From positions 1 through 26,733 of the forward strand of contig BRYA01000002.1 in assembly GCA_030267965.1 (NCBI GenBank): a stretch of DNA of 26,733 bases. The letters run 5' to 3'. Positions 820 to 26,733 of this stretch are shown one piece after another. A model generated the notes under the pieces. The model ran no database searches. It was given only the letters and a program-made list of their open reading frames with translations, and had not been told where the DNA came from. Source of the DNA: Triparma columacea. Taxonomy: Eukaryota > Sar > Bolidophyceae > Parmales > Triparmaceae. The position numbers and the translations under genes are program-made. Each line of letters begins with the position of its first letter. The stretch's first letter is position 1.

Positions 820-3800
820 TCAGTCCAACTCATTTTTGTTCTCCCATTCAATGTCATTTAATACAGCATTTTTCAAAACCGTATAATTTCTTTTTGGGAA
901 GATTGTAGATTTTGATCTTTTCAACTTTTTAGCTGTTGTTCTTCTGTGAATTCTCTCTGTTTCTCTATCAATATCAGTGGGGATAAATTCGAGAGGAACT
1001 TTTGACCTAAAAATGTCATTAAACCATGTTGGTCTTGTATCTGCTTGGTGGTAGGGGATGGTGAAGGGGTTGGAAATGACAAGCAAAGAGAGGAGAGAAG
1101 TGACAACTTGACAACCATACTCTGCATTCTCATCCATGTTTTACGTTCATACTGAATTCTTCTTTGCCTTGAAATCCACAACCAACTCACCTTCCCATTT
1201 TTCCCAGTTTGATCCTATCCATGTGCGTACTTCAGCCTCAATTTCCTTCCAATGATTATTTGATACCATTAGCATTGAAGCCTTTGATTTATCACTAATA
1301 CTATCTGTAAATTTTCCCACAGTGAAATCTTTTCCCTTCTGTGTGCTATAAAATGTCCACAAGTAACGTCTTTCAATGTTGAGTAAGAAGATGGTAAAGA
1401 GTATCATAATAGCGGGGACCAGAATAGATTGAGCCATAAAGGCAACTTCTATTATGAATAGCAATCCACCGCTCTTCACATAACATCCAATTGCGATTGG
1501 TAGACTAACTAGTGTAAGAATACATTCAAATAGCCAGTACAGACCTCCAAGCTCATAGGGATGCCTAAACTGCACAATTGATGTAAAATCTGTTATGATT
1601 TTAACAATGATTCTTGCAAAGATACTAGTCACTATCTCCATTTTTCCACCAACCGGAGCCCAATACCAAAAGTCCCTTCTGTACAGCTTGATCGCAAGGT
1701 AAAGTGCCAGGTCACTACTCAAGTATAACAGGACAATCTTCTTACTGATCAAACTAAGAATCACGATAGTCATGCATCTTACCAAAAGCATCCCTGCGCA
1801 AAAGAATGTCATGGTCGCAAAGACAATTGACCTCTTTGTGGCGTTTGAAGGAACATAGCCATAAAAATCTAGCATATTATCCCTGTTGTTAGGGTCGGTA
1901 TCATAGTCGTAACTGAGTGTGCTGCAGATGAAACCTGTGCTGATGGCAGATGAAAAAAGGCTGATCCAAGCACCAACATTGGAATTGTTTGATGTTGTAA
2001 TGGCCATGAGCTGAATTATAACTCCCGGTATAGCTTCAGCAAATATCTCACTTGCCTTGATGACACTCATCTCTGTCATGGTGTCGAAAGAAGCTCCAAC
2101 CTCAGCCTTAATTCCCTTTGTAACTCTATATGCATCCAAAGCAGGTTTGCAGCAAATTAGAATTGGCAGGATCTCTCTCAAAATTTTACGCCAGCCTAAC
2201 TTTCTGTTCTGCATGATAACTCCTAAGATTTGAAAAAGAATAGAAAAGGTCAAGCTTGCTACAGATACATTGAAGTATGTCCGCATTTTTTCTCCGTCAG
2301 TCCAGAACATGTATGTGACGTAGATATCAGTAAGCAAATCACTCATACTTGTAAAGGCTCCTAGACTCACCCTCCAAAGAAGACCCCAAGGGGCAGTCTT
2401 CACCACTCCCTTCCCTATCTCCACAAACATGCCCTCCATCCATGGAAACTCCTCAAACAGCTCCCCAACGGCCCTGTTCTGCAATTTCCACATATCTACC
2501 CCAGCCTCAATTACCTTCCTGCTCTTCAAACAAGGCATCAAGTTGTTTCCGATAATCCTTGCTTCCTCTGTGCCAACACACGCAAGTTTCCCTGATCTTG
2601 CACTATTTACTTTGAGCTGCCCAAGCCGACACCTCTTTAGCATGATAACGAACCATGGGTACTTCTGTACTACCTCTCTAAGTGCTGTGCTCCTCTCACA
2701 CACATCCTCAACATGCCTCTCTCTGTCCTTCCTTGAATGTGCTCCTCCAAGTTGTCCTCCATCCCAAACCAAATCAGCACCCAAGGCCTCGCCAACTTGC
2801 TTAGACATCTCCATTAAAGGGACGAGGTTAGTAAAGTATCGTTCTGCTTCAGAAGCCTCATCAAGGTGCCTCTGCAGAGCAATCTTGACTGCACCATCGT
2901 TTACTTTCTTCTTGAGATTGAGGTTTGTTACAAATTCGACTTTTGTCTCTTTCTTTCCCTTCCTCGTAAGTCTTACACTTACACTTTCCTCGCCTCTTTT
3001 GGCATGAGAATAGACCATCTTGTGCAAAATTGTCTTTCGTAATTTAATTCCCCTTTCCAGTGGCAGTGACTTGATCACAATGGTGTTATTGTCTACCTTA
3101 AAGAGCTTCATGACGTTCCAGAATTCCCTATAATGATGAATCTTCTTAACCTTTGCATCAAGTTTTTGTAACCTTCGCACCGTAAGCTTCCAACCAGGAT
3201 TTTTTTCTTCAATAACTCTTTCAATGTCTCCAGTTGTCTCTGCATGAGCGCAGCTCTCAAAGTCCCAAAAGAAGGCTGCAGTTTCCTCAAGCGTTGCCCA
3301 GACATTGACAACTGTCTTTCCCCATCCCTTGCCAGGTCCAATGACTGCAATTGATGTTTCTGACAATGGAAATGATCCCTTGACTTGTTTCTTCCCTGCA
3401 TGATCTTTAAAGAGAGATTCAATAGACTTGTGTGACTTCCAAGTCTTTAGCTTCATCTTAATCAGCTTATCACGAATTGCAGCCCTGTTGTAAGCATCAA
3501 TCTCCTTGCTCTTTGAAAACTCCTTCTTCAGTATTGTAAGGGAAGAAAGGAACTGGGGGGCCTGTTTGTTTATTATTCGAGTAGGTATGGACCCCTTCAA
3601 GTCAATCTTTGCACAAATTGTGACCCTAGTTTGTGCTTCACCGCCCTTGTCAGGAATAGCCTCAAACAAATAAACTGTAAAGGCAGATCCAAGAATTGTG
3701 TTTGTAGAGGAACTTGACAGTGCACCTTCGTTGTCATCTAGATCCTTACAGACAATCCAGATCTTATCATCTTCCTTTTTGAAGTGTACAGAAGTTCTAA

Positions 3801-6800
3801 ATTCTCGGTCTGCAATTCCAGGGACTCCTAGATCTTTCGTTAAAAGGTAATGTAGAGTCACGCTGTTTACAGGTTTGATGGTATTCCTCACAATTCCATA
3901 CTTTTTTAGGTCCCTGAGTGTAACCCTACTACCTAAACTATTCCACTGGAAAGCGGCACACATTGCTGGTGTACTATCAACAACAGTAGTCTTTGTTGCA
4001 GTCCCAATGCCAGATCTGTCCGAAAAAACAACACCCACCACCTGATCAGTGGTCTTGTTATTTGGCTCCATTTGTTCTTGAGTCTGCTTCACTTTCTCAT
4101 AAAGCTCCTTGCCACTATTCAAAATATTTGTCTCTTCAATTGTGTAGGTATGATTTTGCATCATGGTCGCTGCCATCAAGCCTCTGGCGACTTGGTCAAC
4201 TTTTTCATCCAGGTTGAACTTCCTGATAACTTCATCAATCAAGCTTAGGGATCTAGGAACATTAGCTAAAATGAGTGACTTTGGGATAAAGCCTCCTGCA
4301 TCAACGTGCTGCATTATGTGAATTTTGCAACTACTAGGCATTCCGTTGTTTGTTGGTCGGTTGGTAAATGTGAAAAGAGCTGTTCCTCTTCCCCTAACTA
4401 GACGCCCAACGCCTCCCCCCCAGTCAACTTTGTTGTCTACTGGAATGGCAGCAACGGAAATGCTGCCATCGGGGTTCCTTTTCCAGTAGGACTTGAAGAC
4501 AAACTCCCTATTTAACATATAAAACGGCATCTTCTTGATGCAGGCAAATAGCTTCTCGTTGTGCTTCTCCTCCTTTTCATCTATTAGTTCAATCCTCGCT
4601 GGAGGATTTCCAGCTTCAAAATGGAGTCTGTTCCTGTACCTGCTGCAAAAAAGAAAAATGTATGCAGCAGCTTCCTCTGCTTTGCAGTCTACAAAACCCG
4701 ACGTACGGCCAACTACAATGCTCTTCTTCTGCTGCTGCTGATATTTAAACTCATATGTGGCTCTAGCATAAGGTGAATCAATGGTTTGCCAACCATCACC
4801 CTCAAAGAGCTTGCCCAATGAAATGAATACTTTCTCCTGTTCTTCACTCATCTTCAAGCCTTCCTCCATCCTCGTGCTCATGACCTTCCGAATTTCCGCG
4901 TCTACTTCCTCCTCGTTCCTCCTATATTTTTCAAGCTCCCTATTTGCCCATTTTAATTTGAGTCTCGCAATTCGCTCAAGAACTGGTGTTGGAAGATTAA
5001 CCTTGAGGTCGACATATTGGCATCTCAACCACCTGCAGACATTAGGCGATATCTCAGTTATAACCTGTATACAAATTGTTTCAGCCATTTCCATTCCATC
5101 AAGGTTGCTGTTGGTGTCAGTAAATGAGTGTTCGCCATTAAGGGGTACATAACCACACCTGTAAGAAGTTAGACCGTTTTCTGTGTAGAGAAGTTGAAAG
5201 AGTAAGAATTTGTTCTAGCTGTATGTACATGCATTCAGTTGAAACTCACCAAGTTTGACTTCCTTCCACGTGCCGCACATCTCAAACAGGCGATTCTTGT
5301 AAGCCCCAGGGAAATGATGGCCAACACGGTAGTAAATACTGCGTGCTCCACGTTTGCTCTCCACAACTCTGACAAGATCTCTGTTCTCAAGCTGCAAGAG
5401 GGACCAGAATGAACAAAGAAAGGGGGTTGAGAATCGGATTAGAGATTGCGAAACAGGCAACCACGAATCAAAATAACACAAAGAACCACAGCAACAACGT
5501 CATTACCGCCCTATATGCGGAACACTCATTATCTTCTCTCCTCATCATCATCTCACCTGGTGTTCCCTAGCTTGATCATAAGAATTGACGTTAAACAAAT
5601 TTGCAAGCAGAAGCTTCGCAGAACAATCTACCGTCAATCTAAAACCTCCCATAATTTTGCCGTTGTCTCTCCAGAGGAACTTGTCTACATCCTCCTGTAG
5701 AGTTCCCCAGACTCTTTTTCCCTTGCTACGAAGGTCTTCCTCGAGCCAATCAACCCTGTGGAAGATTTTTTCATCTTCTGCTGTTAGTGGTGGCACAGTT
5801 GTCATGGTGTAATTGATGAAGTGCTCTGCCCTCCTTTTGTCTATGACCACTGGCTTTTGGAAGTGCCTCTCGATGTCTTTTAGGATGCCCTTGAGAGTAT
5901 AGAATAACATTTTGCAATCTAATTCGCTGCTTCCACTTGGCAACAATATGTTTGTGCTTGCCTTGCGTAAGAACGCAGCAGCAGTCTTGGGGGAGGCACG
6001 CTGAATATTCCTTATGGCAGAACCTCTCCTCAGGTGCCTGTTAGGGTTTGGGATACTGTTTCTGCGGGAAGATATTTTAGATTTAGTGAGAGAAGCTACA
6101 TATTGCACCATATCTTTGTTTCTCTTTTTGCTTACCTAGCCTCAAGGGAGCCCACAAGAGTAACTGCTGATTGCCCTAGCTCAAACTTGTGTATTATCAT
6201 TTCGCCCTCGAGGATCGCCCTGGCAGAATCAGCATTCGCCTCAATAATAGACTCAAGCTTCGTGATGGCCATCCTTGGTAATCTGTTTTCCTCAAGGGAC
6301 TTCGAAGGGATGTGTGTTAGAAGGCAGTATGACCATTGAAAGTCTAAAGCTACAACACACACACACACACACAATAAGACCGGACACATGAGTTCTAAAA
6401 TGGTAGCCATCAAAGCCCTCACCTTAATCTTGATCTCTTCTGATGAGTCTTGTGGTGACTTAGAAATCCTCATATCCAGCACATACTCAACCAACTTTTC
6501 TCCCCTCTTAGGATAATACTGCCAAAAGACAATCATGTGCTTCGTGTTCGTCTCCAAAGAGAAGTCATACTGTAATTTGCCGTGTTAGAATAACCTTGTT
6601 AAGTTGTTGAGATGCACGCATCTGTGTGTACGCATCTGTGTGTACGCATCTGTGTGCAAGTACCTCTTAAAATCTCACCTCGTGAATAATGTGCCTTCGA
6701 AACTTGCCACTATTACATGGTTTTAGGAGAAACTCACAAACACCCTCGGGTTGTTCATGGATTACCTGCAAATAGCAAAGGGGAAATTAACGACGTGGTG

Positions 6801-11983: not shown

Positions 11984-12040
11984 TTAATCGTCGATGGCGT
12001 CGTCAGTATCCACTATCCGCAGCCGCGCGCAGTAACAACA

Positions 12041-12075
<35 letters not shown>

Positions 12076-12520
12076 AAATAAGAAAATGGAACGCACAAGC
12101 TGACAAGCTGAAGAGAGGGACTTCACAAAACAATCCGTAACCGCGGGTTGTCCATGATAAGTTTGTGTGTTTTTCTGAAATTAATTCCCAGTTTTTTCCT
12201 GGCGGCTGCTGTGACTGTCCAATCGTCGTCACTCCGTCCGGGATTATGATGGCTGCGAGGGAAGAGCATCCCCTGAAGGCGAATTCACCAATCGACTTCA
12301 CTCCGTCTGGGATTGTGATGGCTGTGAGGGAGGAGCATCCCTCGAAGGCGTAATTGCCAATCGTCGTCACTCCGTCTGGGATGGTGATGGCCGTGAGGGA
12401 GGAGCATCCCCTGAAGGCGCTATCCCCAATCATTGTCACTCCCTCTGCAAAAGTCACCTCCGTGAGTTCATTGTTGTTACTGAAGCTCTCTACGCCAGAG
12501 TACACTGCTGAGCTGGACAT
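11984..12520 (-). CDS. BspA-type leucine-rich repeat protein, short copy
   Basis: The frame starts MSSSAVYSGVESF and runs into about four 23-residue repeats of the BspA/LRR-5 type, with the core GCSSLTAITIPDGV and TIGxxAF. Such repeats form a solenoid used for binding or adhesion. After residue ~100 the repeat stops abruptly at TTIGQ and the remaining ~75 residues are unrelated, including an SLSLSLS stretch encoded by a CT repeat (12041-12071). The repeat domain matches the longer copy at 15896-16630, so this looks like a truncated duplicate or a gene whose 3' exon I could not identify; the pyrimidine tract could belong to an intron. Confidence 0.65.
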
Positions 12521-12953: not shown

Positions 12954-15499
12954 ATGTCGCCAACGCCTAGTCTCCCCTCCCGTCCAGGTCGGAAGGCCAA
13001 GTCCCCGAGCCCCGGTCCCTCTCCAAAGAACAGGTTAACAAGCAATCCGATTGACTTCTCGAACGACCCGACGGTTATTATATCGGCTATGGCGGCGCAC
13101 GAGGAGCTGCAGAGGCTCAAGGAGATGCACCACGGTGCCACAAAGAGAAGAAGGGTGAGTGAAACAGTCCGGGAGTGGGGGAGGGGGGGGGACTAGAAAC
13201 TGCAGGAGGAGAAGGGGGTGGAAGGGGGAGGCAAGAAACGACGGCGGCGTGTGTCTAACCACTTACTCCCTCAACGCAACAACACCCCTTTCATTCAACC
13301 CAAAACAGGGATCGGTCGTTCGTAGGCAAGGCCTAGCAAAGGAAAAACTTCAGGAGAGGTTGCAGAAGAAAAAGACCATGGCTGTTAACAAATTAAAGGT
13401 GAGGGTCCAGGGGGGGGGGGGGGNNNNNNNNNNNNNNNNNNNNNNNTTTGGGTCTTATCCTAATCCTCTTACTCCCTTCCCCTCCCCCTCCCCACCCCAC
13501 CCCATTTCCCTAGGCCTTCTCTGCCTTCTCTGGTGGACTAGGTTCAATGTTCGGTAGAAGTCTATCCCCGGGTTCCGCTGCTGACTTGGCAGCAGCTCAA
13601 GCAGCGTCGAACTCAGCTCTTGAAGATGAGTGGGTTTCACCGAAGGAGGAGGAGGAGGAGGGTGAGGGTTTCATGGTTGGGGGGGAGGGGGAACTTTCAC
13701 CCCCACTACCAAGTAAAAGACCGAAGAAGAAGAAGAAGGAGAAGAAGAAGAAGCAGAAGAAAAGTAAGAAGGAGAAGAAGGTCTTCACCAGTGGTGACGA
13801 GAACGACGTTTGGGAAGGCCCGACTTCCGCTGCTGCTGAAGGTACTCCTACAGGTGGAACGAAGGGAATATCACCGACCCCACCCAAGGAACCCCCTAGT
13901 ATGCCGCCTAGGAGGACCAGGTTGTCATCAGTTAGGGAGGCTTGGGTTGATAAGGAGGAAAAAAAGTCTGAGGGGGAGGGTGGAGGGGGGGAGGGGGGGG
14001 AGGATATAGCACCTACAACACCACCAAGGAGACGGAACAAGGGTAGGGTTCAAAAGCAGGATCAGGGGAAGATAGAAGGGGAGAAGGGGGGAGAAGTTGA
14101 CGACGGAGGTGGAGGTGAAGAGGCCTCCGATGGGGGTGGGGACGTAAACCATACCCCTCAGCTAGAGGTGGGGGGAGATAAACTAGACTCAACAAGTCAG
14201 GAAGTCAGTCCTGGTTCACGTCCCCCTACTGCTTGGTCGACGGCATCGAGCTCGTCATCTGAAGAAGCGTCATCGAAGTCATCCATGAATTTAGCGACGC
14301 CGCTACGACCTGGGATACCAGACGAGTCTTTAGACCAGCCACCCGAGCTGTTAATATCACCCCGCATGAAACTTGTAGGTAAAGTTTCATGGAGCCAGCT
14401 ACTCCAGGTAGAGGGTCACCTCGAGGGTGAACTCGTGGGGGGTGACGATAGCACTGTCGTGGTGGCGGACGGGGGGGTAAGGGTTGGAGACGTTACGGGG
14501 GTATGCAACGTTGAGGTTGAGGGGGGGGGGAGACTTTTTGGGAGCGTAGAGGCGGCTAACGTTGTGGTCAAGAAAGGGGGGGTACTGGTGGGGAACGTTT
14601 TCGCGGATAGTATGACGATTGAGGGGGGGGGAGTACTGGTGGGGACGATTGAGATAAGGACGGAGGTTAGTGGGAGGAACTTGTTTGATGATAATACTGG
14701 GGAGGGGGAGGGGGAGGGGGAGGGGGAGGGCGAGGGCGAGTGGGATGATGAGGATGAGGATGATGAGGGAGATGAGGATGATGTGGGAGATGAGGATGAT
14801 GAGGAGAATGCGCAGAACGAGGAGGTGCAGAGGGAGGAGGAGCAGAGGGAGCAGGAGCAAAGGGAGCAGGAGCAGAGGGAGCAGGAGCAGAGGGAGCAGG
14901 AGCAGAGGGAGCAGGAGCAGAGGGAGCAGGAGGAGGAGGAAAAAGAGAGGGAGAAGGAGCAGAAGGAGAAGGCGCAAAAGGAGAAGGCGCAAAAGGATAA
15001 GGCGCAAAAGGAGAAGGCACAGAAGGAGAAGGAGAAAGCGCTGAAGGAGAAGGCAGAGAAGGAGAAGGCGGAGAAGGAGAAGGCGGAGGAGGAGGAGAAG
15101 GAGAAGGCGGAAGAGGAGGGCGAGGGACTTGTTCAAGGCTTGGCCAAGATGCTAGGACTGAGTGGTGACGAGGATAAGGAGGCTCAGGGAGATGGTACGA
15201 AGGAGAAGGATGAGAAGGAGAAAGACGAGAAGGAGAAGGAAGAGGATGAGAAGGAGAAGGAGAAGGAGAAGGAAGAGGAGCACAAGGACGACAAGGAGGA
15301 GGAGCACAAGGACGACAAGGAGGAGGAGCACAAGGAGGTTGGAGATGTGAAAAAGGAAGATGAGGGGAAGGGAGATGAGGGGAAGGGAGATTTTGAAGAG
15401 ATAGATTTGGGTAAGGATGTAAAGTTGGACGTTGTAAAGGAGGAGGTTGTAAAGGAGGAGGTTGTAAAGGAGGGGGGTGTAAAGGAGGGGGATGTATGA
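12954..15499 (+). CDS. Bactofilin-domain protein with long charged tail
   Basis: Three exons, all phase 0: 12954-13154, 13309-13398 and 13514-15499, giving about 758 residues. Exon 1 starts MSPTPSLPSRPGRK and contains a basic helical stretch. Residues ~125-370 are disordered and rich in K, E, P and S. Residues ~375-485 form a bactofilin-like beta-helix: LVGKVSWSQLLQVEGHLEGE, then repeated V/I-x-G turns (GGVRVGDVTG, GGRLFGSVEA, GGVLVGNVFA, GGGVLVGTIEI). Bactofilins are self-polymerising cytoskeletal proteins mainly of bacteria. The rest is a highly charged tail with five or more REQEQ repeats, KEKAQ repeats and EEHKDDK repeats, interrupted by one amphipathic segment, LVQGLAKMLGLSG. Intron 2 contains an assembly gap. 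Likely a filament-forming or scaffold protein; function in the alga unknown. The family assignment rests on the pattern read by eye. Confidence 0.72.
13411..13446. other. Poly-G run followed by a 23-N assembly gap
   Basis: A run of 13 G precedes Ns at 13424-13446. It lies inside intron 2 of the bactofilin-like gene, between the donor AAAG|GTGAGG at 13399 and the acceptor TTTCCCTAG at 13513, so the coding sequence is not affected. True intron length is uncertain. Confidence 0.95.
14826..15100 (+). repeat. 15-nt and 12-nt coding tandem repeats (E/Q/K/R)
   Basis: GAGCAGAGGGAGCAG-type 15-nt units encode successive REQEQ pentapeptides, followed by GAGAAGGCGCAAAAG-type units encoding KEKAQ. They form the charged tail of the bactofilin-like protein and are prone to copy-number change. 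Confidence 0.85.
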
Positions 15500-15895: not shown

Positions 15896-16630
15896 CTAAA
15901 AATGGAGAAGGGCCTCGACAGTCGGCATATTATTGTCGGCAGCGGCAGTGATAAGGGCAGTGCAGTTCTCGAAGCAGTTTTCACCGATGGAAACGGCAGG
16001 TGATAGAATGAGTTTCGTCAGGGCGAAGCAATCCATGAAGGCCGCACGGCCAATCGACGTCACTCCATCTGGGATGGTTATGGCCGTGAGGGAGGAGCAT
16101 AGGTAGAAGGCGAAATTGCCAATCGGTGTTACTGAGTCCGGGATTGTGATGGCTGTGAGGGAGGAGCATCCGTAGAAGGCGCATCTGCTAAGCATCGTCA
16201 CTCCGTCCGGGATTGTGATGGCTGTGAGGGAGGAGCATCTGTAGAAGGCGCCCTTGTCAATCATCGTCACTGAGTCTGGGATGGTGATGGCCGTGAGGGA
16301 GGAGCACCCCAAGAAGGCGCCATCGCCAATCATCGTCACTCCGTCCGGGATTATGATGGCTGTGAGGGAGGAGCATCCGTAGAAGGCTTCATCGGCAATC
16401 GATGTCACTCCGTCCGGGATTGTGATGGCTGTGAGGGAGGAGCATCCTTGGAAGGCGTTATTGCCAATCGACGTCACTGTGTCCGGGATTGTGATGGCTG
16501 CGAGGGAGGAGCATCCGTTGAAGGCGGCAGCGTCAATCGTTGTCACTCCCTTTGCAAAAGTCACTACTTCTATGAGCTCAGGATCTTCAAAGAAGGTCTC
16601 TGGGCCAGAGTACACTGCTGAGCTGAGCAT
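15896..16630 (-). CDS. BspA-type leucine-rich repeat protein, long copy
   Basis: Starts MLSSAVYSGPETFFEDPELI, like the copy at 11984-12520, and then holds about nine 23-residue BspA/LRR-5 repeats (GCSSLTAITIPDGV, followed by TSIGxxAF with small changes). The last unit, ENCTALITAAADNNMPTVEA, is a normal cap for the family. The frame ends at TAG 15896-15898, just where a conserved-looking basic tail begins in another frame. No signal peptide is seen. Probable role is protein binding through the solenoid; partner unknown. Confidence 0.75.
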   Translation of the reverse strand: MLSSAVYSGPETFFEDPELIEVVTFAKGVTTIDAAAFNGCSSLAAITIPDTVTSIGNNAFQGCSSLTAITIPDGVTSIADEAFYGCSSLTAIIIPDGVTMIGDGAFLGCSSLTAITIPDSVTMIDKGAFYRCSSLTAITIPDGVTMLSRCAFYGCSSLTAITIPDSVTPIGNFAFYLCSSLTAITIPDGVTSIGRAAFMDCFALTKLILSPAVSIGENCFENCTALITAAADNNMPTVEALLHF

Positions 16631-21011: not shown

Positions 21012-24000
21012 TTAGATTGAGGTGCAATTGTTTTGGCCCTCTACGTACATTCCGGAGCCAGAGGTCAAACCAGTAGGGCAATCTATGCATTGTCCGTTAG
21101 CGTTGGGTTCCAGAGTAGTTCCTGATGGTTGGCCGGAGAGAGTGAACATGGATTCAAACAAGTCGACTTTGCATATATTCCAGACTGTGACGTCCTCGAC
21201 AAAGGCACTTGCGCCATAGAACATAGCCGTCATGTCTTCGACATTAGAGACATCCCAACTCCCAATATCCTGGTTGAATTCATAAGCGCGACTGCATTGA
21301 ATTCAATGCCGGGTGGAGATGTGCGAGATGATATTTGCGTGTGCGTGTGTGAATGTTAGAATGAGAAGCGAGTGTATAACATTACTTAAAATAGAATGCC
21401 GCAAAAAAAGCACGCAAACCACAAAGACCTCATCTCCAAAGCATCTCTCAATACTCACTAGAACATATATGCCATGTTAGTGACACTCGAGACATCCCAA
21501 CTCCCAATATACTTGTTGAAGACAGATGCCTCACTGCGTTTAATTTATTGCCGAGTGGAGATGTGCGAAATGAGATTTGCGTGTGCGTGTGTGAATGTTA
21601 GAATGAGAAGCGAGTGTATTTCTCAATATAGAATGCAGCAAAGAAACACGCAAACCACGAAGACCATCACTCCAAAGCATCTCTCAATACTCACCCGAAC
21701 ATTTCCTTCATGTCAGTGACACTCGAGACATCCCAACTCCCAATATCCTGGTTGAAGGCTTCTGCGAAACTGCGTTGAATTCAATGCCGAGTGGAGATGT
21801 GCGAGATGATATTTGCGTGTGCGTGTGTGAATGTTAGAATGAGAAGCGAGTATATTACTTATAATGGAATGCAGCAAAGATAGCACGCAAACCATGAAGA
21901 CCTCATCTCCAAAGCATATCTCAATACTCACTAGAACATAGACCCCATGGCATTGACACTCGAGACATCCCAACTCCCAATATCCTGGTTGAAGACATTA
22001 GCGCGACTGCATTGAATTCAATGCCGAGTGGTGATGTGCGAGATGAGATTGGCGTGTGCGTGTGTGAATGTTAGAATGAGAAGCGAGTATATTGCTTAAA
22101 ACAGAATGCAGTAAAGATAACACACAAACCACAAAGACCTCATCTCCAAAGCATCTCTCAATACTCACAGGAACATCTGATACATGTTAGTGACACTCGA
22201 GACATCCCAACTCCCAATATCCTGGTTGAAGAGTTCTGCTTTACTGCATTGAATTCAAGGTCGAGTGGTGATGTGCGAGATGAGATTTGCGTGTGCGTGT
22301 GTGAACGTTAGAATGAGAAGCGAATGTATTACTTAAAATAGAATGCAGCAAAGATAACACACAAACCACAAAGACCTCGTCTCCAAAGCATCTCTCAATA
22401 CTCACAGGAACATGTACGACATGTCAGTTACACTCGAGACATTCCAACTCCCAATATCCTGGTTGAGGTCATAAGCGTAACTGTAACTGCGTTTAATTCA
22501 AGGCAGAGTGGAGATGTGCGAGATGAGATTTGCGTGTGCGTGTGTGAATGTTAGAATGCGAAGCGAGTATATTGATTAAAATAGAATGCAACAAAGATAA
22601 CACGCAAACTACGAAGACCTCCACTCCAAAGCATCTCTCAATACTCACGCGAACATATTAGACATGGTGGTGACACTCGAGACATCCCAACTCCCAATAG
22701 TCTGGTTGAAGTCAATTGCGTAACTGCGTTTGATATAATGCCGAGTGGAGATGTGCGAGATGAGATTTGCGTGTGCGTGTGTGAATGTTAGAATGAGAAG
22801 CGAATGTATTACTTAAAATAGAATGCAGCAAAGATAACACGCAAACTACGAAGACCTCCACTCCAAAGCATCTCTCAATACTCACTCGAACATATACGAC
22901 ATGTCATTGACACTCGAGACATTCCAACTCCCAATAGGCTGGTTGAATTCATTAGCGCGACTGCGTTGATTTCAAGGCCAAGTAGAGATGTGCGAGATGA
23001 AATTTGCGTGTGCGTGTGTGAATGTTAGAATGCGAAGCGAGTGTATTACATAATATAGAATGCAGCAAAGATAACACGCAAACCACAAAGACCTCATCTC
23101 CAAAGCATCTCTCAATACTCACTTGAACATACGATTCATGTCAGTGACACTCGAGACATCCCAACTCCCAATATCCTGGTTGAAGTCATACGCGTTACTG
23201 CGTTGAATTCAATGCCGAGTGGAGATGTGCAAGATGAGATTTGCGTTTGCGTGTGTAAATGTTAGAATGAGAAGCGAGTATATTGCCTAAAATAGAATGC
23301 AGCAAAGATAACACGCAAACATCAAAGACCTCATCTCCAAAGCATCTCTGAAATACTCACCCGAACATACGATTCATGTCAGTGACACTGGAAACATCCC
23401 AACTCCCAATGTTCTGGTTGAAGACTTCTGCGTAACTGTGTTTAATTCATGCCGAGTGAAGATGTGCGAGATGAAATTTGCGTGTGCGTGTGTGAATGTT
23501 AGAATGAGAAGCGAGTGTACAACATTACTTAAAATAGAATGTCGCAAAAATATCACGCAAACCACAAAGACCTCATCTCCAAAGCATCTCTCAATACTCA
23601 CAAGAACATATATGCCAAGTTAGTGACACTCGAGACCTCCCAACTCCCAATATCCTGGTTGAAGACTTCTGCGTAACTGTGTTTAATTCATGCCGAGTGG
23701 TGATGTGCGGGATGAAATTTGCGTGTGCGTGTGTGAATGTTAGAATGAGAAGCGAGTATGTCACAGTATATTACTTGAAATAAAATGCAGTAAAGATAAC
23801 ACGCAAACCACAAAGACCTCATCTCCAAAGCATCTCTCAATACTCACTAGAACATATTAGACATGTCAGTGACACTCTTGACATTCCAATACCCAATATT
23901 CTGGTTGAAGTCGGTCGCGTCACTGCGTTGAATTTAATGCCGAGTTGAGATGTGTGAGATTAGATTTGCGTGTGCATTCAGTAGAATGAGAAGTGAGTAT

Positions 24001-26733
24001 ATTGCCTAAAATAGAATGCAGCAAAGATAACACGCAAACCACAAAGACCTTATCTCCAAAGCATCAATCAATACTCACTAGAACATATTAGACATATCAG
24101 TGACACTCTTGACATTCCAATACCCAATATTCTGGTTGAAGTCGGTCGCGTCACTGCGTTGAATTTAATGCCGATTTGAGATGTGTGAGATTAGATTTGC
24201 GTGTGCATTCAGTAGAATGAGAAGTGAGTATATTACTTAATATAGAATGCAGCAAAGATAACACGCAAACCACAAAGACCTCATCTCGAAAGCATCTCTC
24301 AATACTCACTAGAACATACTAGACATGTTATTGACACTCGAGACATTCCAACTCCCAATATCCTGGTTGAAGACTTCTGCGCGACTGCATTCAATTCAAT
24401 GCCGAGTGGTGATGTGCAAGATGATATTTGCGTGTGCGTGTGTGAATGTTAGAATGAGAAGCGAGTGTATAACATTACTTAAAATAGAATGCCGCAAAGA
24501 TAGCACGCAAACCACGAAGACCTCATCTCCAAAGCATCTCTCAATACTCACTAGAACATAGCCGCCATGTCAGTGACACTCGAGACATCCCAACTCCCAA
24601 TATCCTGGTTAAATACTCGTGCATCACTGCGTTGAATTTAATGCCGAGTGGAGATGTGCGAGATGAAATTTGCGTGTGAGTGTGTGAATGTTAGAATGAG
24701 AAGCGAATGTATTACTTATAATAAAATGCAGTAAAGATAGCACGCAAACAACGAAGACCTACACTCCAAAGCATCTCTCAATACTCACTAGAACATAGAC
24801 CCCATGTCAGTGACACTCGAGACATTCCAACTCCCAATATTCTGGTTGAAGACTTCCGCCTCACTGCGTTGAATTTAATGCCGAGTTGTGATGTGCGAGA
24901 TAAGAGATTTGCGTGTGCGTGTGTGAATGTTAGAATGAGAAGCGAGTATATTACTTAAAATAGAATGAGAATGCCGAATATGTAACACTCAAACAACAAT
25001 GACCTCCTCTCAAAAGCATCTCTCAATACTCACCGGAACATCTCGAACATGTTGGTGACACTCGAGACATCCCAATTCCCAATATTCTGGTTGAAGGCAC
25101 TAGCGTAACTGCGTTGAATTAATGCCAAGTGGAGATGTGCGGGATGAGATTTGCGTGTGCGTGTGTGAATGTTAGAATGAGAAGCGAGTGTATTACTTAA
25201 AATAGAATGCAGCAAAAGTAGCACGCAAACCACATAGACCTCATCTCAAAAGCATCTCTCAATACTCACCTGAACATATTAGACATGTCAGTGACACTCG
25301 AGACGTCCCATCCGCTGATATCTTCGTTGAATTCAATTTGTCCTAGGAATGCCCACGACATGTCAGTGACATCCTTCGAGCACCTGCTCAGCCGGCGATT
25401 TAATTTGGGTCCGCAGGGGTCGGATTGCCGAGAGGAGAATATAAGGGTTAGTTGTTACTGGGGCTCGCGTGTTCATCCTCCCATGATGCTTCGTTGTCCC
25501 GTCCTACTTTGTCCGCCTGCCCACCACATAGCCCCCTCTGCATTTTCTCTACTCGCTTGTTCTTCCAACTACTTACCAGTCCGTGATGTTGCCGTATGTG
25601 CTTGCCGCAAGGGTAGGATTATAAAACCAGACAGTAAGTGCCTTTCTGAAGCCAACATTGTCGAAGCAGGGTGGAAAAGGCACGGGAGTGGGCGATGCAG
25701 TAGGCGATGCAGTAGGCGATGCAGTAGGACTAGCAGTAGGCGATGCCGTAGGACTAGCAGTAGGCGATGGCGTAGGACTAGAAGTAGGCGATGCCGTAGG
25801 ACTAGCAGTAGGCGATGCAGTAGGCGATACCGTAGGACTAGCAGTAGGCGATGCCGTAGGACTAGCAGTAGGCGATGCAGTAGGCGATGCCGTAGGACTA
25901 GCAGTAGGCGATGCCGTAGGCGATGCAGTAGGCGATGCAGTAGGACTAGCAGTAGGACTAGCAGTAGGCGATGCAGTAGGCGATGCCGTAGGACTAGCAG
26001 TAGGCGATACAGTAGGCGATGGTGTAGGACTAGCAGTAGGCGATGGCGTAGGACTAGTAGTAGGCGATGGCGTAGGCAATGCCGTAGGACTAGCAGTAGG
26101 CGATGCAGTGGGTGAAGGCGTAGGCGATGGCGTAGGACTAGCAGTAGGCGATGGCGTAGGCGATGCCGTAGGACTAGCAGTAGGCGATGCCGTAGGACTA
26201 GCAGTAGGCGCCGGAGTGGGTGCAGGCGTTGGGCTGTCAGTTGGCTGTGGAGTTGTTGGCGCAAGTGTAGGCAATGGAGTGGGCGCGGGAGTGGGTGCAG
26301 GTGTCGGGCACGTTAGGATCGGGCACGCGGGAGTGGGTGCAGGTGTCGGGCACGTTAGGATCGGGCATGCGGGAGTGGGTGCAGGTGTCGGGCACGTTAG
26401 GATCGGGCACGCGGGAGTGGGTGCAGGTGTCGGGCACGTTAGGATCGGGCATGCGGGAGTGGGTGCAGGTGTCGGGCACGTTAGGATCGGGCACGTTGGC
26501 TGCGGAGTTGTGGGCGCAAGCGTAGGTGCAGGAGTAGTCGTGGGAGTGGGGTCAGGCGTCGGGCTGTCAGTGGGCCCAGTGAATTCCATGGCGCACGTGC
26601 ACGTGCAGTTGCCGGGGAAGTAGCTCCACTGCGAGGTAGCAGTGCCGGGGCCGCAGTTCCTGTTTTTGACTTGGTTGAAAGTAGCTTCCTTGTTGTCATT
26701 GTTCGCTGCGTTCAGTTTGCTTTGGATAACAGA
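21012..26733 (-). CDS. DUF285-repeat surface protein with Pro/Thr stalk (5' partial)
   Basis: Nineteen exons join in phase to 916 residues; the frame is open to the window end, so the 5' end is missing. Exon 1 (25577-26733) encodes a Cys-containing segment ([10 protein letters not shown]), a stalk with five [14 protein letters not shown] units and many ASPT/PSPT units, then [20 protein letters not shown]. Exon 2 (25270-25383) completes the entry repeat ([16 protein letters not shown]). Sixteen 75-nt exons follow, starting at 25034, 24789, 24552, 24310, 24079, 23848, 23602, 23361, 23123, 22886, 22649, 22406, 22169, 21932, 21695 and 21459. Each is one 25-residue DUF285 unit ([14 protein letters not shown] then DMxxMF). 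Exon 19 (21012-21291) has the last repeat and a Cys-rich end ([13 protein letters not shown]). DUF285 repeats form LRR-like surface solenoids. Probably secreted or cell-wall attached; ligand unknown. No stop interrupts any exon. Confidence 0.85.
22481..22486 (-). other. Duplicated acceptor in front of one DUF285 exon
   Basis: Upstream of the exon at 22406-22480 the minus strand reads CGCAGTTACAG, giving two AG acceptors six bases apart. The downstream one keeps the 75-nt exon; the upstream one would add two residues in frame. Confidence 0.7.
23848..24309 (-). repeat. Youngest duplicated cassette pair
   Basis: Exons 23848-23922 and 24079-24153 differ by one silent base and encode the same atypical unit ([19 protein letters not shown]). 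Both flanking introns are 156 nt and share the same shortened GTGCATTCAGTAGAATG block. Both units are 231 nt. Confidence 0.9.
25680..26215 (-). repeat. Minisatellite encoding the S/P/T/A stalk
   Basis: 12-nt units of the GCAGTAGGCGAT / GCAGTAGGACTA type (plus strand) encode ASPT and PSPT repeats on the minus strand. Open frames on the other strands (Val/Gly- or Arg/Ser-rich) are by-products of the periodicity. Confidence 0.9.
26286..26497 (-). repeat. 42-nt tandem repeat, five copies
   Basis: Five nearly identical 42-nt units encode [14 protein letters not shown] in the stalk, each with two cysteines that could form disulfides or cross-links. Alternate units differ at one base (CACGC versus CATGC). 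Confidence 0.9.

Follow-up and report, generated by a model that had tools for sequence, protein, structure and literature searches.

Exon-cassette arrays of a DUF285 repeat family in Triparma columacea and their probable diversification through exchange and selection

A gene in which each exon of a long tandem array encodes one whole repeat of a DUF285 protein lies at the right-hand end of a contig of 26,733 bases from the silicifying alga Triparma columacea (BRYA01000002.1; this whole stretch of DNA is referred to here as the window). The gene belongs to a young, expanded family of dozens of arrays, and its cassettes are common to unlinked contigs, are unequal in number between arrays, and are mosaic. 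We consider it probable, at roughly 0.7, that this is an expanded family of LRR-like solenoids in which cassette exchange is combined with diversifying selection on a recognition surface. The arrays are built from a 237-bp cassette of exon plus intron, which encodes one whole repeat between phase-2 borders. Unequal exchange and gene conversion within and between loci would add, remove, and mix cassettes, with the uniform introns and repeat cores supplying the homology for exchange and the exon borders keeping each exchange frame-safe. Diversifying selection would then retain and spread new variable residues, and these residues would form a surface for the recognition of microbes, viruses, mates, or the alga's own kind.

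Architecture of the array gene

The gene lies on the minus strand, and its 5' end is cut where the contig terminates at 26733. The first exon in the contig (25577..26733) is an open frame comprising an N-terminal region, a long Pro-Thr-rich linker, and a ...YGNITDW end that exits in phase 2, and similar modules are found on contigs C580 and C112. The N-terminal part within the contig (25577..26733) has no Pfam matches, and the true N-terminus lies beyond the contig. The linker is coded by a 24/36/60-base minisatellite (25687-26210), and a separate 42-base repeat (26284-26495; 5 copies, 97% matches) adds two Cys per copy. A first intron of 193 nt (25384..25576; phase 2, GT..AG borders, donor GTAAGTA at 25576), judged by eye not to be of the cassette family, is followed by a 114-nt exon (25270..25383) that encodes the N-cap and the first DUF285 unit and whose AG lies 114 nt upstream of the donor. 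This type of N-cap exon recurs in paralogs, for example on C218, C273, C109, C746, and C383. Sixteen cassette exons come next (21459..25108), each encoding one 25-residue DUF285 unit with phase 2 on both sides, and the last exon (21012..21291) encodes one further unit and the C-cap before the stop. The splice sites of the gene are predicted, having been read from the sequence.

Seventeen cassette-type introns of the form GTGAGTATT...CAG span 21292..25269. Their donors lie between 25269 and 21458, and the last 16 of these each have an AG acceptor 75 nt upstream. The introns preceding the 16 cassette exons are 156-171 nt long and the final one (21458-21292) is 167 nt. All 18 introns of the gene within the contig are in phase 2, and 17 of the 18 come from one sequence family. 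Tandem Repeats Finder describes the array as 17.2 copies of a period of 237, with a score of 5314 that is far above chance. All but one of the 16 cassette exons have a length of 75 nt. The remaining one (22406..22486) is 81 nt if its usual acceptor is used and 75 nt if splicing takes place at another AG located 6 nt further downstream, both acceptors being in frame.

These features had in large part been described in an earlier note made from the letters of the window alone. Translation of the 16 exons bears out its central claim that one exon equals one 25-residue DUF285 unit, and the phase-2 borders that allow cassettes to be gained or lost in frame, along with the near-uniform introns (156-171 nt, one sequence family), hold throughout. 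Its count of sixteen exons is correct, with the reservation that one of them (22486-22406) is 81 or 75 nt rather than simply 75. The range it assigned to the array, 21292..25269, corresponds to the span of the introns, and the gene itself runs on to the contig end on one side and through the C-cap exon to 21012 on the other.

The spliced N-cap exon and first five cassettes match PF03382 (DUF285) with 241 bits against a cut-off of 25 (E 1.8e-72). A close bacterial relative has an LRR-like solenoid fold, with a structural match to solved LRR domains. A sequence search of solved structures returned a single row with an E value of 0.96 and no relative, and an Rfam search of the 26,733-nt window returned zero matches.

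At its other end the contig starts with a telomere-like CCTAAC repeat (1-68). Two BspA-type LRR_5 genes with 69-base repeats, which represent another tandem-repeat LRR family, are found on the minus strand at 11984-12520 and 15896-16630. Between them, at 13547-15499 on the plus strand, a single open frame contains a Bactofilin-like domain and then a very long charged Lys-Glu repeat.

The cassette family across the genome

We searched one genome of 37.85 Mb in 789 contigs. The 237-bp exon plus intron unit has at least 294 matches (40 of 79 candidate regions scored), and those listed, self aside, are 86-92% identical over at least 217 bases and are found on many contigs. The cassette intron alone has at least 239 matches (40 of 85 candidate regions scored), the introns being about 90% identical to many copies across the genome. 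With two mismatches allowed, a 25-base donor motif matched 309 times and its reversed-pattern control 0 times, and the acceptor motif matched 241 times with a control of 0. The C-cap gave at least 60 rows on 42 contigs at 58-100% identity, the window gene included (150 of 826 candidates scored), and an internal stop is found in 2 of the 60. On C114 a cap runs into the next N-domain, and some proteins seem to have several arrays in series. The paralog on C112 has an N-terminal hydrophobic leader that, by eye, resembles a signal peptide, and the proteins of the family are likely secreted.

From this family, 165 cassettes on 26 contigs were extracted, which covers about half of the 309 genome copies. 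The finder required a stop-free frame, a frame-neutral length with phase 2, and four of five motif checks. Exactly 75 nt is the length of 145 of these cassettes, and 157 of the 165 have the donor GTGAGTATT. Position counts used the 145, with the odd window exon entered in its 75-nt form and the 20 cassettes of other lengths left out, and comparisons with introns used the 118 of the 145 that have an upstream intron of 120-210 nt. The cassettes fall into 45 uninterrupted runs, the longest containing 22 (C686), 16 (the window array), 11 (C393), 8, and 7 cassettes, and some runs are cut by sequence ends.

Because of these requirements intactness was assessed separately, and 162 of the 191 donor matches in the analyzed DNA had an extracted cassette. 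By reading, the remaining 29 comprise 11 N-cap exons, 4 exons with fused units, 1 that carries an insertion, 6 in-frame exons of other lengths, 1 ordinary exon that the motif check had failed to pick up, 2 matches in unrelated genes, 3 at contig ends or gaps, and 1 with a premature stop (C272). The earlier note had interpreted the array as a surface solenoid of which many versions arise by unequal exchange or by alternative exon inclusion. This interpretation stands in part, being consistent with the in-frame cassettes, the unequal cassette numbers of paralogous arrays (22, 16, 11, and many of 1-8), the LRR-like solenoid fold of the bacterial relative, and the replacement excess described below, where the proposal of exon inclusion is also considered.

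Other features were observed in passing. A cassette exon on C580 (4885-5217) has an in-frame Pro-Thr-Ser-Ala minisatellite block inside its repeat. Other DUF285 architectures are present in the genome, such as one on C369 in which DUF285 units and then ankyrin-like repeats follow in one open frame, by eye. Silicon-transporter matches of up to 380 bits are found on one genome contig, as would befit a silicifying ochrophyte.

Variable residues and diversifying selection

Variation within the repeat is concentrated at a few positions. In the 16 units of the window array, positions 1, 3, 21, and 22 hold seven different residues each, positions 4 and 8 hold five, and position 19 holds four, and codon 25 has eight different leading dinucleotides. 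Across the 145 cassettes, amino-acid entropy reaches 3.2-3.5 bits at positions 1, 3, 21, and 22, diversity at the leading bases of codon 25 is close to its maximum, and positions 4 and 19 are intermediate. Phe5, Asn6, Ile9, Trp12, Val14, Val17, Met20, Met23, and Phe24 show little or no variation in the 145 exons. The earlier note had named positions 1, 3, 4, 8, 21, 22, and 25 as variable, of which 25, 1, 3, 21, and 22 do dominate, followed by 4 and by 19, which is not in its list. Position 8, however, is mostly Asp (121 of 145). The core that it called fixed is nearly so, with single changes of F5 to L, of Q7 to K, and of M20 to L and two of S15 to K in the 16 units of the window.

The introns provide a reference for this variation. 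Among the 118 cassettes, mean pi at the variable sites (the first two bases of codons 25, 1, 3, 21, and 22) is 0.667, which is near saturation, versus 0.101 in introns, 0.100 at core third positions, and 0.003 at core first and second positions. The variable sites thus exceed the introns by a ratio of 6.6 (locus bootstrap 6.1-7.2), and the ratio in the window array alone is 5.9 (15 cassettes). None of 162 intron columns is as diverse as the lowest variable site. Variable-codon pN is 0.62 in 20 pairs of cassettes whose introns are 2-4% apart and 0.27 in 3 pairs below 2%. Relative to the introns, the variable positions thus show the excess of replacement changes that the earlier note had proposed to look for, and it supports diversifying selection on the variable residues, as judged from comparisons among paralogs. 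The introns may themselves be under constraint.

Two other sources of this contrast were considered and set aside. If the introns were younger than the exons, an introner having entered each already diverged unit, they could be uniform for that reason; this is disfavored, as core third positions are as diverse as introns (0.10 and 0.10). Codon bias as the cause of the quiet core was rejected because third positions of codons 6, 9, 17, and 24 reach 0.49-0.60 in 35 intronless units (23 of other DUF285 subfamilies and 12 from C580, C634, and C272), with the third position of codon 5 at 0.06 in this set.

Some arrays of the family have lost or never had the introns between units. In four of them (L052-L055, 30 units) the units are fused, with just as much variation at these positions, which indicates that exon borders are unnecessary for the variation. 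Third-position pi in these 30 units is 0.07-0.19 at codons 5, 6, 9, 14, 17, and 24. Their codon 25 has T as its third base in 25 of 30 units, versus 4 of 23 units of other DUF285 subfamilies, and this pattern fits with intron loss. On C580 and C634, fused and split units are mixed.

The fused arrays bear on the proposal that alternative exon inclusion is the point of the system, with cassette skipping yielding many isoforms per gene and with phase kept even and splice sites kept nearly identical in order to permit it. All 165 extracted cassettes are frame-neutral, which was itself a criterion of the finder, and nearly all share one donor. The first exon base, which is the third base of the split codon 25, is T in 136 of the 145 exons, so that stops are avoided at nearly all exon junctions whichever exons are joined, and one exon has two in-frame acceptors. 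All of this would suit skipping. The even phase, however, also follows from the mode in which cassettes multiply, and arrays that are fused, or that mix fused and split units, are part of the same variable family, so we regard exon inclusion as an unlikely explanation.

DUF285 arrays in bacteria, archaea, and viruses vary at the same unit positions as the cassettes (160 loci compared, the best 80 of 549 and the best 80 of 348), which makes tolerance of change at these positions a property of the fold. In 123 prokaryotic and viral arrays with at least 8 units, mean pi is 0.64 at variable sites and 0.39 at core third positions, and the median ratio is 1.6. The 11 cassette loci with at least 6 units have ratios of 3.4-9.3, two of the 11 being without any core silent change. 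A few prokaryotic or viral arrays match the cassettes, namely L160 (ratio 17) and L181 (7.5) on viral contigs and L100 (7.2), which is bacterial, and these may be young arrays under similar selection. What is unusual in the cassettes, if not wholly unique to them, is that change in young arrays exceeds the intron level.

The shared positions are also what would be expected if constraint were relaxed and the variable residues were merely tolerated and drifting. In keeping with this, silent differences are also elevated within the variable codons, with an NG86 pS of 0.47 versus a pN of 0.65, both uncorrected. Drift should nevertheless stay within the neutral level, whereas the variable sites stand more than sixfold above both introns and core third positions, and pN is already high in pairs whose introns have barely diverged. 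The raised silent change leaves the excess over the introns standing, and relaxed constraint is in our view improbable.

An ice-binding or matrix solenoid, in which the regular core face does the work and the variable residues are secondary, is a further alternative. One report describes diatom DUF285 genes and transcripts as abundant at high latitudes, says that the trend extends to other phytoplankton, and likens the fold to antifreeze solenoids (PMC11992049). The cold-water link is one of DUF285 at large, however, and not of the cassette subfamily, and such a role would leave unexplained why replacements at fixed positions exceed the level of the introns. We therefore think it quite doubtful as the main function of the arrays.

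Diversifying selection on the variable residues thus remains the preferred reading, and the silent sites suggest how it may operate. Pairs of cassettes that share a residue use different codons in 16-29% of cases at positions 1, 3, 21, and 22 and in 3-13% at most core positions, the exceptions being codon 15 (39%) and Ala2 (63%). Ala2 has a silent third base (exon base 7) that equals the selected codons in diversity and shows tight linkage with codon 3 (z about 12-22), in the combinations GCA-GAA, GCT-TAT, and GCG-ACC, a diversity that goes beyond selection on residues alone. Since silent change is raised inside the variable codons, the blocks are possibly older than the introns or were copied whole. 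It looks as if short blocks in the variable codons either arose once and were then copied around or are older than the adjoining introns. Selection may work through the maintenance and spread of old blocks no less than through the favoring of new point changes.

The third bases next to these blocks are quiet. Exchange between C and T is limited at codon 25 (T136/C2), codon 22 (T99/C4), and codon 1 (C93/T15), third-base pi is 0.12 at codon 25 and 0.07 at Phe24 (C140/T4) although both sit beside near-saturated bases, and the AAC codon of Asn6 is nearly untouched. A targeted mutator acting on the variable codons, diversity-generating-retroelement-like or similar, would fit codons 1, 22, and 25 ending mostly in one pyrimidine and the diverse silent base of Ala2, which is flanked by the variable codons 1 and 3, but it is highly improbable because third bases beside saturated ones would hardly be spared by a blanket mutator.

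Exchange between cassettes

Linkage within the exon is mostly lost over about 15 nt (145 exons). Near neighbors are linked, with z values of 5.3 for positions 1-3, 5.9 for 3-4, 6.2 for 7-8, and 12.2 for 21-22. Linkage between distant positions of the same exon is mostly near zero, with the exceptions of 19-25 (z 4.0), 13-22 (3.2), and 8-22 (3.1), and across introns it is absent in all 12 comparisons made (z -1.0 to 1.5). Consistent with such mixing, 144 of the 145 exons are distinct, and intron distance is uncorrelated with variable-codon distance (r 0.04). The nearest intron comes from the same locus in 29% of cases, versus 7% when shuffled, which suggests a partial homogenization within loci.

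The C-caps offer a further comparison. Their pS is 0.21 (21 caps), versus 0.20 in the cassette core over all core codons and 0.115 without codons 2 and 15. The caps are thus not clearly more diverged than the cassette core, and therefore this comparison gives no firm sign of homogenization between loci. The alternative statement, that caps are twice as diverged as cassettes, was discarded as it holds only with codons 2 and 15 left out. Taken across the paralogs, exchange of small pieces within and between loci would be the best fit to the pattern of linkage and mosaicism.

The cassette intron outside the arrays

Solitary copies of the cassette intron are found in two unrelated genes. One on C92 (12075-11911) is 165 nt long and 91% identical, and it lies inside a START-type gene. 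The other, on C403 (8308-8191), is a 118-nt form that is 92% identical over 107 nt, and its host gene is one that we take to be a Rieske/PAO-type oxygenase from a motif. An exact donor search (non-C at -3, which excludes the usual cassette exon end) recovered only these two besides two array exons, and a search of this kind would miss diverged solitary copies.

The window contains a paralog of the C92 gene, a START-type gene on the minus strand (1147-5094) that is 28% identical and lies next to the telomere. The site of the C92 intron corresponds to its Thr codon at 3313..3315 (minus strand), where the sequence is continuous and has no intron. The START-type family has at least 149 genome matches (150 of 388 candidates scored), of which the 148 other than C92 run through the intron site in one frame and start at query residues 2-9. 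C92 is the sole match among those scored that starts at the intron site. Because the site is uninterrupted in the 148 other matches, the C92 intron reads as a clear gain, and the array intron is its likely source.

The START-type genes are placed as the members of a subtelomeric family would be if they all kept one orientation relative to the chromosome ends. Of the best 29 rows after C92, with the window gene among them, 16 lie within 15 kb of a contig start on the minus strand, and the other 13 lie at 24 kb or beyond on the plus strand.

Discussion

Recognition, with a partner that we can only propose, is the best reading of a replacement excess on a solenoid of this kind. Beyond the architecture set out in the earlier note, the analysis adds a cassette family that is genome-wide, an intron that also occurs in unrelated genes, and prokaryotic DUF285 arrays that vary at the same positions. 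The prokaryotic and viral arrays share the 25-residue unit as well, differing in that their units are read in a single frame and that the contrast between variable and silent sites is usually small.

Introner elements are near-identical spliceosomal introns at unrelated sites, typically at many more sites than are found here. The algal intron resembles them in its near-identical copies at unrelated sites and in one clear gain, but only two copies were found outside the arrays by exact donor motif and alignment, and the others lie between repeat exons.

The het-d and het-e genes of Podospora encode proteins of NLR architecture. According to a study of these genes, their repeats are exchanged within and between family members and vary in number, and four residues per repeat are under diversifying selection at an interaction surface (PMC1805685), which may be compared with the variable residues of the cassettes. 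With introns as the reference, the alga likewise appears to have a few residues per repeat under diversifying selection. The Podospora repeats are WD40 repeats with a known function in allorecognition (PMC1805685), whereas the algal repeats are DUF285, LRR-like, and of probably secreted type.

The closest likeness in gene structure is with the 90-bp-exon LRR genes of the ciliate Tetrahymena. The report on these genes describes fixed-length tandem exons, phase-2 introns, a junction codon common to neighbors, an LRR-type repeat, recent clonal expansion, and a proposal of exon shuffling by unequal exchange (PMC6564038), all of which have counterparts in the alga. Its authors state there that they knew of no other eukaryote with such uniform exon and intron tandem repeats and suggest that the 90-bp pattern evolved only once (PMC6564038). 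Exon length differs, at 90 bp versus 75 nt in most of the extracted cassettes, and the algal introns are mostly 162 nt. The ciliate has tens of thousands of such exons and the alga about 300 cassettes, and one possible fusion is mentioned for T. thermophila as against several fused intronless arrays in the alga (PMC6564038). The same authors report purifying selection for most of the Tetrahymena genes, in contrast with the replacement excess at defined positions in the alga (PMC6564038).

The kind of system is therefore already known, from the exon arrays of Tetrahymena and from the exchange and diversifying selection of Podospora, and the alga combines features of both. New in the alga are its own exon length and repeat type, its fused forms, and a moving intron that is found alone in two unrelated genes. 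No description of DUF285 exon arrays was found among literature titles and abstract openings, and in a term search, the text covered of the Parmales genome paper contained neither "DUF285" nor "leucine-rich" (PMC10328945).

Two reports describe large DUF285 expansions in another alga, Aureococcus, and in the giant virus that infects it, whose virion contains two DUF285 proteins (PMC10720644, PMC7507832). By analogy, a conflict between virus and host is one candidate role for recognition. A more far-reaching reading, which we hold tentatively and think possible rather than probable, is that the arrays form a germline repertoire of variable LRR-like receptors in a protist, similar in logic to lamprey VLRs. 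Whole-repeat exon cassettes would be exchanged among dozens of loci, a mobile intron would have set the exon borders and would still provide the homology for shuffling, and unrelated genes would now be undergoing colonization.

The algal arrays are a separate case in a lineage far removed from Tetrahymena; they differ from those of the ciliate in repeat and exon length but agree with them in intron phase. Their introns act as a built-in yardstick that exposes a strong replacement excess at fixed residues, and the arrays bear on the ways in which a recognition repertoire is built by the shuffling of exons, the movement of introns, and selection. They also make it readily testable what is recognized by a phytoplankton protein family that has expanded massively and whose function is unknown.
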